In this document: positions 32,915 through 36,431 of the stretch, one piece after another
Layout of the letters: every line of letters begins with the position of its first letter
How positions within the stretch are numbered: the first letter of the stretch is position 1
Origin: Henriciella barbarensis
Lineage (GTDB): Bacteria; Pseudomonadota; Alphaproteobacteria; Caulobacterales; Hyphomonadaceae
DNA: 64,000 nt
Direction: 5' to 3'
Assembly (NCBI RefSeq): GCF_003576345.1
Contig: NZ_QWGB01000005.1
Span: 682,001-746,000, forward strand
The notes under the pieces: generated by a model
What the model saw: the letters and a program-made list of their open reading frames with translations, nothing else
Told to the model about the DNA's origin: nothing
The model's database searches: none
Program-made: the position numbers and the translations under genes

Positions 32915-33190
32915 ATGCCAAAGGCACTTTCCATCCCTTTGATGCTGTCAGGCCTCCTTCTGGTCTGCGCCCCCTTTATTATCTACGCACTCGATTCGCT
33001 GATCGGGCTCGGCAGGCTTGATCCGCTGACACTTTCCACCCTGATCGGGACGCTGGGCGCAGGCCTTCTCGCTTTCAGCCAGGGTGACCGCTGGCCGCGC
33101 TTTTTCCTCGCCTTAGGCGCTGGATTGGGTGTTCTTGCCCTGCAGATTTACGGAATTGTTTTCCTCGTGCTGGCCTCAAGCGGGCTCTAG
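32915..33190 (+). CDS. Small membrane protein of unknown function
   Basis: The 91 residues form three hydrophobic segments (about 6-28, 40-56, 66-88) with short loops. No family is recognised. It follows the secreted unknown protein by 63 bases on the same strand, so they may be co-transcribed. Its stop overlaps the end of the convergent GtrA gene by 4 bases. Confidence 0.6.
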   Translation: MPKALSIPLMLSGLLLVCAPFIIYALDSLIGLGRLDPLTLSTLIGTLGAGLLAFSQGDRWPRFFLALGAGLGVLALQIYGIVFLVLASSGL

Positions 33191-33588
33191 CTCGTGCGGA
33201 ATGCAAATTTTCCATACCCGGCAAATGACGCGAGCGTGCAGATGAGTGTCGCGATAGCCGTGGCCAGTACCGGCGGGCATGAAGGCACGATCACGAGCAG
33301 GCCCGCATAGAGCAGATAGTTGAGGGCTGCGACGCTCGCTGCCACGGAAAAGTACCGTCCCGCTTCAGAAATCGGGCTGCCGCTACTGGCGCCAAATGTG
33401 AAGGCGCGGTTGAGTCGCCAGGTCACGAACATGGCAAACAGGATGGAAACGACACGCGCGACAAAAGGGCCAACGCCGCCTGAAATCAGGAGGAAAAGTG
33501 TTCCAGCATCCGCGACGAAGCCAAGCCCGCCGACCAGAACGAAACGTACGAATCTGGCCTTCAGGACCTGATGGATCAGGACTTCCAT
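33187..33588 (-). CDS. GtrA family membrane protein
   Basis: The 133-residue protein has four TM helices. FVRFVLVGGLGFVADAGTLFLL at the N-terminus and WRLNRAFTF between helices 2 and 3 are the GtrA signatures. GtrA proteins are thought to flip or help transfer polyprenyl-phosphate sugars. The ATG at 33588 overlaps the 3' end of the glycosyltransferase gene by 13 bases. That gene makes or uses exactly such a lipid-linked sugar, so the two probably act together. Confidence 0.85.
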   Translation of the reverse strand: MEVLIHQVLKARFVRFVLVGGLGFVADAGTLFLLISGGVGPFVARVVSILFAMFVTWRLNRAFTFGASSGSPISEAGRYFSVAASVAALNYLLYAGLLVIVPSCPPVLATAIATLICTLASFAGYGKFAFRTS

Positions 33589-34556
33589 TCGGGCGCAGGA
33601 TAGCTGAGGAAGACGGAGCGTTTTGCCTCGACGCGCGCGCGCGCAAGACTGTCGAGGATGAGGCCGCAAACCGCCGTCACCGTCGCAACAATAACGAGGC
33701 CCATGGAGAGGACCGCCGTCGGGAAACGCGGCACGAGGCCGGTCTGAAGATAGGTCAGAGCGAGCGGCGCCGCGAGACAGAGCGCGGCCAGGGTCAACGC
33801 AAGGCCAATCGCGCCAAAGAAAGCTGCCGGACGCGTTTCCTTGGCCAGCACCATGAACATGCCGAGAATGCGGAAACCGTCCCGGAATGTCTTGAGTTTG
33901 GAAGTCGAGTCCTCGGGACGCACGCCGTATGGCGTTGGACGTTCCAGCGTCGGAATGCCGATCTGGCAGGAATGAACCGACATCTCTGTCTCAATCTCGA
34001 AGCCGCCAGAAACTGCCGGAAACGATTTCACGAACCGGCGGGAAAATACACGGTAGCCAGAGAAGATGTCGCTGAACTGGCGACCGAACAGCCGATTGAA
34101 CAGCATGTTGAAAATGCGGTTGCCAAAGGCATGACCGCCGCGGCCAGCATCCTTGGTCACATTAGCCCGCGTGCCGACAACCATGTCGACATGGTTCTTC
34201 TTCATCAGCTCAACCAGCGTTGGCGCGAGCGAGGCATCATAGGTGCCGTCACCGTCGGCCATAACGTAGATGTCCGCCTCAATGTCCGCGAAGATACGGC
34301 GCACGACATGACCTTTGCCCTGCCGGATTTCGGTGCGGACGATTGCGCCAGCTTCCCGCGCAATCTGCGCCGTCGCATCGGTGGAATTGTTGTCGAAAAC
34401 ATAGATGTCGGCGCCGGGGAGCGCGCTGCGAAAATCTTCGATAACCTGGGCGATGGTGGCAGCTTCATTATAGCAGGGCAGCGTCACGGCGATGCGTGCT
34501 TCTGCCGGGTCAGCGGCTGGACGGGGATTAAAAGTTTCAACAGCCGCGCGCTTCAT
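33576..34556 (-). CDS. GT2 glycosyltransferase, dolichyl-phosphate-mannose synthase-like
   Basis: The 326-residue enzyme has a GT-A domain (about 20-230): IAVTLPCYNEAATIAQVI for nucleotide binding, YVMADGDGTYDASL as the DXD-containing metal site, and FSDIFSGYRVFSRRFVKS, as in DPM1-like synthases. Two C-terminal TM helices (about 250-275, 285-310) anchor it. Family members move a sugar from a nucleotide to polyprenyl phosphate at the inner membrane. The downstream overlapping GtrA gene and the divergent GT-C gene at 34644 fit a lipid-linked sugar pathway. The ATG at 34556 is chosen; an earlier one adds eight residues. Confidence 0.88.
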   Translation of the reverse strand: MKRAAVETFNPRPAADPAEARIAVTLPCYNEAATIAQVIEDFRSALPGADIYVFDNNSTDATAQIAREAGAIVRTEIRQGKGHVVRRIFADIEADIYVMADGDGTYDASLAPTLVELMKKNHVDMVVGTRANVTKDAGRGGHAFGNRIFNMLFNRLFGRQFSDIFSGYRVFSRRFVKSFPAVSGGFEIETEMSVHSCQIGIPTLERPTPYGVRPEDSTSKLKTFRDGFRILGMFMVLAKETRPAAFFGAIGLALTLAALCLAAPLALTYLQTGLVPRFPTAVLSMGLVIVATVTAVCGLILDSLARARVEAKRSVFLSYPAPEWKS

Positions 34557-34643
34557 CGCGTCACCTTTCTGTAACCACATTCGTCGTTTAACAGGGCCAG
34601 GTGAACAGCTGGTTACGCCTGCCAGCCCTGAAGATGAGCGCGC

Positions 34644-36431
34644 ATGCAGAGCGAAAAGCCTTCCCCCCTGGCCTCGAAATGGGTGCTGATTGCCTTCGGT
34701 CTCGTCGCTGTTGGCCTCGTCGCCCTACAGGCTGGCCCTACGCTCGGCGGCGACCTCCGCGGCAATGACGACATGATGCGCATGCAGCAGGTTCGTGACC
34801 TGCTATCGGGCGAGCGGGGCTGGTATGACGTCAGCCAGAGGCGGCTTCTGACGCCCGAAGGCGGCGAAATGCACTGGTCTCGCCTGCCGGACCTTTTCAT
34901 TGCCGCCATTATCTTCCTGCTTCAGCCATTGATCGGCACACGTATGGCAGAAGGCGTGGCGGCAACGCTTTGGCCGATGATGCAGCTTGGCTGGGTGCTG
35001 GCCATGGTTGCTGTCTGCCTGAAGCGGCTTGGCGCGACTCTCAGCGGCCAGCTTGCAGGCATGTTCTTCCTTGCCACCTCATTTGCGCTATTCAACCTGC
35101 TCCCCGGCCGGGTCGACCATCACGGCCTCGGGCTCGTGCTCACGCTGACAGGGTTCGCGGCGCTTCTCTCGCCGATAAGGAATGCGCGATCAGCTTTGAT
35201 CGGCGGGGCGTGCGTCCCCGTCATGCTGAGCGTCGCAATCGAGAACTTGCCGGCGGCTGCCTTCCTGATCGCAGGCTTCTCGATCGCCTGGGTCGTGCGC
35301 GGCGGCATAGAAGTGGGGCGCTTGCGGATTTTTGGTGCAACGCTGGTCGTCGCAGCGCTTCTTACATACGTCTTCGATGCGCCGGGGGCACAAGGTGTGC
35401 GCGCCGTTTGCGATGCCTACGGACAATCGCACTTTGTTGCGCTCCTCGTCGGGGGTGCCGGACTTTTCGTGATCGCGACTGCCGCCCCATCTGCGGACAC
35501 GTGGCGCCTGCGCCTTGCTCTGATAACCGTGGCTGGCGCCGTCGCGCTCGCGACGTTCATTGCCGTCAATCCGTCCTGCCTCGGCAACCCGTATGCAGGC
35601 GTCCTTGATGATGTGCGCACTGGCTGGCTGTCAGGCGTCGGGGAGGCCCGCAACGCCGCCGCGGTATTTGTCGACGATGCAACCCAGGCAATGTTCTATT
35701 TCGGATTTGGCGTGGCTGGCGTCATCGCTGCGATAGTCTGCCTGCTGCGAGCGCCGGACGGCCTGCGTCTTGCGCGCAGCTTCCTGCTCGCCTTCTGCCT
35801 TCTTGGCTTTGTGATCTCTCTCTGGCAGCTGCGCGCGGCCATGATGTCCCATGCCTTCGCTGCTATCGCCGGAGGCTTGCTGACCGGCGTTGCGTTCCAG
35901 CACTGGAGGAACAGACGCGGCGGTAAAGCGGCGCTCATCCTCGTACTGGTGGCATTGCTCGCATCGCCTGCGGGATGGCGCCTGCCGGGACTTCTTCTGA
36001 CTGACGCTGATGAAGAAACTGACACAGCAGACTTTGACTGTACTTCTGCCGCGGCGCTGGCGCAGGTCGCCGCTGCGCCGAGCATGGTGGTCTTCACACC
36101 GATCGATCTTGGTGCGCCGTTGATCTACCATACGCCGCATTATGCAACGGCCGCCCCCTACCACCGCAATGTACATGCGCTGTCGCGGACGCTGAACATT
36201 TATACCGGCCCGGTTTCGAGAGCCCGCGAAAAAATGTCCCGCTCAGGCGCCACCCACCTTCTCTATTGCCCCGGCCTGAATGAGATGGCTGCCTATGCAG
36301 AGCGCGCGCCGAACGGTTTCGCAGCCGCGCTGGAAAGCGGCAACCTGCCGAACTGGCTGGTCCCGACGACGTCCCAAGATAACAGGACCGGCGACCCTGT
36401 CCTTTACAGCATCGTCTTCGACCGCAATTGA
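34644..36431 (+). CDS. STT3-like GT-C membrane glycosyltransferase
   Basis: The 595-residue protein has about 11-12 TM helices and a C-terminal soluble domain (about 470-595). The first periplasmic loop reads RGNDDMMRMQQVRDLLSGE then MHWSRLPDLFIA, as in the STT3/AglB/PglB family (paired acids, then W-P/R-L-x-D-xxIA). LPGRVDHHGLGLV matches the DHH block of the same fold. I do not find the WWDYG motif of oligosaccharyltransferases, so protein N-glycosylation is not supported. It probably uses a polyprenyl-linked sugar from the divergent DPM-like enzyme. AMP nucleosidase follows by 30 bases. Confidence 0.65.
   Translation: MQSEKPSPLASKWVLIAFGLVAVGLVALQAGPTLGGDLRGNDDMMRMQQVRDLLSGERGWYDVSQRRLLTPEGGEMHWSRLPDLFIAAIIFLLQPLIGTRMAEGVAATLWPMMQLGWVLAMVAVCLKRLGATLSGQLAGMFFLATSFALFNLLPGRVDHHGLGLVLTLTGFAALLSPIRNARSALIGGACVPVMLSVAIENLPAAAFLIAGFSIAWVVRGGIEVGRLRIFGATLVVAALLTYVFDAPGAQGVRAVCDAYGQSHFVALLVGGAGLFVIATAAPSADTWRLRLALITVAGAVALATFIAVNPSCLGNPYAGVLDDVRTGWLSGVGEARNAAAVFVDDATQAMFYFGFGVAGVIAAIVCLLRAPDGLRLARSFLLAFCLLGFVISLWQLRAAMMSHAFAAIAGGLLTGVAFQHWRNRRGGKAALILVLVALLASPAGWRLPGLLLTDADEETDTADFDCTSAAALAQVAAAPSMVVFTPIDLGAPLIYHTPHYATAAPYHRNVHALSRTLNIYTGPVSRAREKMSRSGATHLLYCPGLNEMAAYAERAPNGFAAALESGNLPNWLVPTTSQDNRTGDPVLYSIVFDRN

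Follow-up and report, generated by a model that had tools for sequence, protein, structure and literature searches.

What does a 595-residue membrane protein do when its gene stands head to head with that of a putative polyprenyl-phosphate sugar synthase, which in turn overlaps a gene for a GtrA protein? The question is raised by the window, a stretch of 64,000 nucleotides of Henriciella barbarensis DNA (contig NZ_QWGB01000005.1, positions 682,001 to 746,000). There, a first-pass annotation made from the letters alone had placed, at 33187-36431, an STT3-like glycosyltransferase of the GT-C class (hereafter the GT-C) paired with a family 2 glycosyltransferase (GT2) resembling dolichyl-phosphate mannose synthase (DPM) and a GtrA protein, and all three genes were found at those places. 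We propose, with a probability of about two in three, that they form a three-component system for transmembrane glycosylation, in which the final step falls to an AglB-like, metal-dependent enzyme whose acceptor site has been remodelled. The genes are as follows.

33187 to 33588, minus strand: GtrA-family protein, 133 residues from ATG; a longer open reading frame begins at TTG
33576 to 34556, minus strand: GT2, by homology an AglJ-type polyprenyl-phosphate hexose synthase, 326 residues, with two C-terminal membrane helices
34557 to 34643, no strand: divergent intergenic region from the GT2 start to the GT-C start, 87 bases by coordinates
34644 to 36431, plus strand: GT-C glycosyltransferase with a predicted STT3/AglB fold, open reading frame of 595 residues

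Fold and active site of the GT-C protein

The AlphaFold2 model of the GT-C, built on a 76-sequence alignment (predicted local distance difference test, pLDDT, 93.7; predicted template modelling score, pTM, 0.93), crosses the membrane several times up to about residue 452 and continues as an extracytoplasmic C-terminal domain; in the model, that is, the GT-C fold of GT66 with its STT3-type membrane part and C-terminal dome can be recognised. When the model was compared with the PDB by Foldseek, the top 22 matches were all AglB, eukaryotic STT3, DPY19 or PglB, with E values from 2.3e-11 (AglB) to 4.7e-7, followed by AftA (1.5e-4) and ArnT (3.8e-4). By VIA-align, the highest Z was that of Archaeoglobus fulgidus AglB (AfAglB, 3waj; 26.1 over 512 residues at 3.6 Å), ahead of yeast STT3 (24.8), DPY19 (21.6) and PglB (21.2), whereas Pmt4 (18.0) and ArnT (17.1), which share the wider fold, fell below AglB. 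For rough orientation, a model from another GT-C family finds yeast STT3 (4.5e-4) and ArnT (9.6e-4) with nearly the same E value. The structure comparison with PglB/AglB and ArnT that had been suggested as a check therefore puts AglB, STT3, DPY19 and PglB far ahead of other membrane families. As modelled, the 595-residue protein is STT3/AglB-like in fold, and it is probably so in chemistry; by its defining motif, it is outside GT66.

Sequence searches were made with the protein itself and with two sets of homologues. Set A1 consists of the window protein and those of 20 of the 34 genomes with a GT-C match in whole-protein searches, none taken twice. Set A2 (76 sequences) adds to the window protein 75 GT-C frames out of 81 present in 80 loci, these being 80 of 223 that were confirmed; two overlong frames (L073 and L074, of 952 and 987 residues), which look like low-complexity read-through, and four near-duplicates were left out. 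At E 10, Pfam returns nothing for the window protein, PF02516 (STT3) and the protein mannosyltransferase (PMT) family included, and PHROGs has no match either; neither its single sequence nor the 21-sequence profile of A1 matched any PDB entry. The A2 profile, on the other hand, matched 3vgp (E 0.0018) and 3waj (E 0.048). TIGR04154, the NCBIfam model of archaeal STT3, scores the window protein at 20.8 bits (E 1e-4), far under its cut-off of 450, and matches 32 of the 76 A2 members at E ≤0.1, the best at 1.6e-10. PF02516 matches a single A2 member (E 0.053), and the family does not pass the Pfam STT3 cut-off expected of GT66. Genomes were surveyed as well: GT-C orthologues occur in 34 of 61 relatives and the family in 51 alphaproteobacterial genomes among 398 of the phylum, while PF02516 matches are found in 0/61 and 11/398, respectively. 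The orthologues in relatives and the Foldseek E of 2.3e-11 to AglB speak against a chance resemblance. When the family profile was compared with that of seven bacterial STT3-like proteins, the match fell short of significance (probability 8.5); as the global register alone fitted the order of motifs, this comparison is not counted as evidence. At L131 and L133-L138 there are STT3-like proteins of bacteria that carry motifs of the WWDxG type (WWDNG, WWDFG, WWDAG, LWDAG, WWDIG); these are outside the taxonomic class and separate from the GT-C family.

In AfAglB, as described in PMC8342417, the metal is bound by D47, D161 and H163, with E360 joining via water, H81 and R426 lie close to the phosphate, and the lipid-linked donor of A. 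fulgidus carries a single phosphate. The candidate equivalents in the window are listed below, with counts for A2 unless stated.

34767 to 34772, plus strand: D42-D43 of external loop 1, taken as the first DXD (AglB D47); D42 in 76/76, D43 in 74/76
34872 to 34883, plus strand: H77-W78-S79-R80, where external loop 1 ends; H77 and W78 in 76/76, and in 21/21 of A1
35115 to 35123, plus strand: D158-H159-H160, second DXD (AglB D161-H162-H163, metal ligands), by profile alignment to 3waj
35643 to 35645, plus strand: E334 (AglB E360, TIXE), by profile alignment to 3waj; 74/76
35832 to 35834, plus strand: R397 (AglB R426, phosphate site), by profile alignment to 3waj; 76/76

The first-loop and DHH features noticed in the first reading of the letters are real and conserved, the former as an acidic pair: all 21 sequences of A1 share D42, D43, H77-R80 and D158-H160 without exception, and in A2 the acidic pair and the DHH are kept in 74-76 of 76 (D158 in 75, H159 and H160 in 76), although the A2 loci were found by HWSR and DHH patterns, so that those two motifs are favoured in its counts. 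The correspondence of D42 to D47 and of H77 to H81 follows from order and first-loop position, with no direct alignment; since a profile of the N-terminal part (A3) retrieved from the PDB only yeast STT3, at E 9.8, these first-loop matches stay inferred, and H77 is perhaps, by position, the H81 near the phosphate. The two DXD-type motifs, the TIXE/SVSE glutamate and the phosphate arginine of GT66 are thus all present, D42 by position only.

An acceptor side without the sequon tryptophans

If the catalytic residues resemble those of AglB, what has become of the site that reads the sequon? The C-terminal domain holds three elements that bear on this.

36039 to 36041, plus strand: C466, invariant in 76/76; its partner candidate is C542 (36267-36269), also in 76/76
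36099 to 36113, plus strand: P486-I487-D488-L489-G490, at the place of WWDYG, as aligned by profile with 3vgp, the C-terminal domain of AglB
36156 to 36170, plus strand: P505-Y506-H507-R508-N509, a family-specific motif of the C-terminal domain; R508 in 76/76, H507 in 75/76, Y506 in 73/76

The reported absence of WWDYG was borne out, with the refinement that the motif has not been deleted: in the window protein, the homologous place reads PIDLG, and the WWDYG sequon-binding motif of GT66 is not there. Tryptophan at 486 or 487 is found in none of the 76 A2 members, while D488 and G490 are each kept in 66 of them. The family also conserves T497 and H499 (T-x-H), and PYHRN is a candidate acceptor-site element; a C466-C542 disulfide is possible. 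It looks, therefore, as if the catalytic chemistry has been kept and the reading of the acceptor changed. Because the sequon tryptophans are replaced and T-x-H and PYHRN are conserved, an N-X-S/T sequon is unlikely to be the acceptor, and the GT-C is probably not an N-X-S/T oligosaccharyltransferase.

The partner genes and their linkage

The GT2 matches PF00535 (E 6.6e-19) and carries hydrophobic segments at residues 242-271 and 273-293, the two C-terminal segments, which, with its homology, fit a membrane-anchored GT2 that would make polyprenyl-phosphate sugar. Its best-scoring curated model is AglJ, a dolichyl-phosphate sugar synthase of archaea (TIGR04182; 209.6 bits, the next at 72), yet it is below the equivalog cut-off of 325 bits and is not classed as AglJ; the phage GtrB family in PHROGs gives 56.7 bits only. 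In a set of homologues from diverse loci (A4, the window GT2 and 17 of 30 strong GT2s), AglJ is the best match of all 18 members (best E 1.1e-64), and the A4 profile finds the solved dolichyl phosphate mannose (Dol-P-Man) synthase 5mlz (DPMS) at E 3.8e-12. The GtrA matches PF04138 above cut-off (E 1.4e-18), has four hydrophobic segments and is a proposed, putative flippase of undecaprenyl-phosphate (Und-P) sugar. The matches to PF00535, AglJ/5mlz and PF04138 agree with the DPM-like GT2 and GtrA first proposed.

The three genes do co-occur in relatives, as the first interpretation required. A close AglJ-type GT2 accompanies the GT-C in 30 of 34 positive relatives and is found in 1 of 27 negatives, and PF04138 in 33/34 versus 12/27. 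The phylum set of 398 genomes has 54 with a clear GT-C, the two weakest (G313 and G438) having been dropped from 56, and 62 with a strong GT2 (above 300 bits; the next scores 134). In it, AglJ-type GT2s occur in 33 of 54 GT-C-positive and 29 of 344 GT-C-negative genomes; the Fisher values for the GT2 in the two comparisons (5.6e-12 and 2.0e-17, respectively) ignore shared ancestry. The GT2 lies within 3 kb of the GT-C in 18 of the 33 genomes with both, divergently in 14 and on the same strand in 4, and two of these four, in genomes outside the class, have overlapping GT-C and GT2 genes. Such diversity of gene order points to selection acting on the GT-C/GT2 pair. Both partners lie within 2 kb in 18 of 22 close loci, and at least one partner is found in 30 of 58 distant loci; sphingomonad-locus GT2s, which score 263-325 bits by iterated profile, proved on pairwise comparison to fall outside the AglJ-type orthologues, so two GT2 types are mixed in the 2-kb counts. 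The GT-C is thus encoded with a GT2 and a GtrA, the exceptions being one genome (G009) and many sphingomonad loci.

Within the genus, coordinated losses also point to linkage: all three genes are gone beside amn in G007 and G023, while G001 and G003 lack GT-C and GT2 and have kept GtrA, which may therefore serve other systems. Intact GtrA genes stand beside amn after GT-C/GT2 loss at L161:3908-4300 and L162:3924-4316, in two genomes of the genus Henriciella. The overlapping same-strand genes, at L149:5149-7841 and L150:5384-8078, form a compact pair with no adjoining GtrA. At L146:8153-9610, the divergent GT2 is followed downstream by a methyltransferase, then by a small membrane protein resembling EamA and a weak GtrA-like one, among which there may be alternative flippases. 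GtrA divergently flanks the GT-C in a sphingomonad record, and it does so together with the GT2 at L147. Fourteen sphingomonad-type loci have near the GT-C, directly downstream of it in several, a second family of membrane proteins without Pfam match, with the motif DLPGHMGRYRVQ (L112:9612-11231, L114:9527-11182 and L126:5757-7412 are examples); its model (pLDDT 80.0) matches STT3 at E 4.5e-4 and ArnT at E 9.6e-4, and it is probably another uncharacterised GT-C.

In the window, the GT2 and GtrA genes overlap by 13 bases. The GT2 start at 34556 is an ATG directly preceded by AGAAAGGTGA, and an alternative start at 34580 would give 334 residues. A scan of the intergenic region found no sigma-70-like site. 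An AMP nucleosidase gene starts 30 bases after the end of the GT-C; a functional tie to it was rejected, as it adjoins in Henriciella and near kin but does not do so in the more distant loci read. The neighbours are housekeeping genes (AMP nucleosidase, gshB, purK, MarC), with no polysaccharide cluster in the loci read. Relatives of the GT-C with 90-94% protein identity carry the name Henriciella.

Competing explanations and known systems

From the fold, the residue register and the genetic linkage, we infer activity, metal use, donor, flipping and acceptor, the order of steps being drawn by analogy with the systems described in PMC11127046 and PMC8035078. The AglJ-type GT2 would transfer a nucleotide-activated hexose to undecaprenyl phosphate at the cytoplasmic side, the GtrA, as putative flippase, would bring the Und-P-hexose to the periplasmic side, and the GT-C would move the hexose to an acceptor of the cell envelope. 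Its divalent-metal site would be formed by D42, D158, H160 and, via water, E334, with R397 binding the phosphate. As for the acceptor, we lean modestly toward an envelope glycan or a lipid-linked glycan rather than a protein, because the characterised three-component systems modify glycans and the tryptophan pair is gone; in favour of a protein are the isolated position of the genes and the nearest folds, which modify proteins. Relatives in many alphaproteobacteria probably decorate some part of the cell envelope.

Could the GT-C be a protein glycosyltransferase after all? DPY19, which uses Dol-P-Man on tryptophan motifs, would be the model for an enzyme that places one hexose or a short glycan, from an Und-P-linked donor, on periplasmic proteins with a non-canonical sequon. 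The nearest folds (AglB, STT3, DPY19, PglB) all modify proteins, the TIXE glutamate, a peptide contact in AglB, is retained, and the genes sit by themselves in a housekeeping setting; we nevertheless hold this explanation to be a minority possibility, for the tryptophans are missing from all 76 sequences and the three-component systems characterised in PMC11127046 and PMC8035078 act on glycans. A more specific version, slightly more doubtful still, is an alphaproteobacterial module, so far unrecognised and similar to AglJ/AglB, whose STT3-fold enzyme no longer reads a sequon and puts a single Und-P-linked hexose on envelope proteins at a new type of site, as a bacterial counterpart of DPY19 with the metal-dependent active site of AglB. 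Alternatively, as the donors of STT3 and PglB are pyrophosphate-linked, the GT-C might draw on a pyrophosphate-linked oligosaccharide whose carrier is made elsewhere, with the GT2/GtrA linkage reflecting a shared pathway or chance synteny rather than the supply of donor. The GT-C-positive genomes with no AglJ-type GT2 (21 of 54) and G009, which lacks both partners, fit this explanation, but the joint occurrence and the several independent gene orders, overlapping genes outside the class among them, together with the single-phosphate donors with which AglB works (PMC8342417), make it improbable.

The RefSeq name "AcrB/AcrD/AcrF family protein" of one member, WP_347092546.1, would make the GT-C a transporter, and that annotation is the sole point for it; since Pfam gives nothing at E 10, the listed structural matches include GT-C folds (E 1e-11) and no RND fold, and the GT-C catalytic residues are conserved, we give it next to no credence, and the name looks like a misannotation. 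The protein so named is from Sphingomonas parapaucimobilis (L156:4950-6719, NZ_CP155751.1), where a GtrA gene and an S-adenosylmethionine methyltransferase gene are divergent beside the GT-C. Other members are hypothetical proteins only, and under names such as efflux or hypothetical protein, the route is easily overlooked; literature searches found no paper describing the family. A phage-borne serotype converter was rejected, the GT-C having no match in 50,697 phage records.

Several points weigh against the three-component system that we favour, besides the ancestry that the Fisher values ignore. G009 has an intact GT-C with no GT2 or GtrA there, and no strong GT2 or PF04138 anywhere in its genome; no AglJ-type GT2 is found in the 21 positive phylum genomes just mentioned, and 29 carry the GT2 without a GT-C. 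Neither partner lies within 8 kb in 28 of the 58 more distant loci. Some genomes without an AglJ-type GT2 may use GtrB/DPM-type GT2s, which were seen near sphingomonad copies. On the acceptor side, PIDLG is not strictly fixed, varying in 3 of 21 A1 sequences and several of A2, and the retention of D488 means that part of the acceptor pocket may survive.

How does the proposed three-component system compare with those already known? STT3-fold enzymes are known for protein N-glycosylation and C-mannosylation, and a family that keeps the metal and phosphate residues of AglB without the sequon motif would show how the STT3 scaffold changes its acceptor. AglB itself (GT66, A. fulgidus 3waj/7e9s) shares the fold over nearly the whole length, the DHH, the TIXE glutamate, the phosphate arginine, a C-terminal domain with the place of WWDYG, and an AglJ-like synthase as partner; the window GT-C differs in its length (595 residues versus about 868), its missing tryptophan pair, its PYHRN and two invariant cysteines, its 15% identity and its home in Alphaproteobacteria. 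In haloarchaea, as described in PMC3871713, AglJ starts the glycan on dolichol phosphate and AglB transfers it later; that pairing is a close parallel, the window GT-C being the AglB-like part without the sequon motif. DPY19 has an STT3-like fold (Z 21.6), and a single-sugar polyprenyl-phosphate donor is expected here too, but it is described as metal-independent, without metal ligands (PMC10154233), and the window GT-C keeps the AglB metal set. A DPY19 (GT98) orthologue, which would have a metal-free site and a first-loop catalytic carboxylate, was accordingly rejected, as the AglB metal ligands and the TIXE glutamate are conserved.

The GT136 pentofuranosyl system of PMC11127046 also joins a lipid-linked donor synthase, a flippase and a GT-C; there, however, the synthase is of UbiA type, the flippase a MATE protein and the GT-C a different one with a carbohydrate-binding module. 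The putative glycosyltransferases LA_3751/LA_3752 (NF047440) match 12 of the 76 A2 members weakly (best E 8.4e-5), the window protein not among them. In the Gtr systems of O-antigen glucosylation (GtrA, GtrB, Gtr) and the multi-component systems of Gram-positive bacteria, a GT2 with C-terminal helices, a GtrA and a GT-C likewise stand together; here, by contrast, the GT-C is by modelled fold of the STT3/AglB class, the GT2 is AglJ-like, and no O-antigen or teichoic acid cluster adjoins. The comparison suggests that a three-component system of the Gtr kind can end in a GT-C of the STT3/AglB class.

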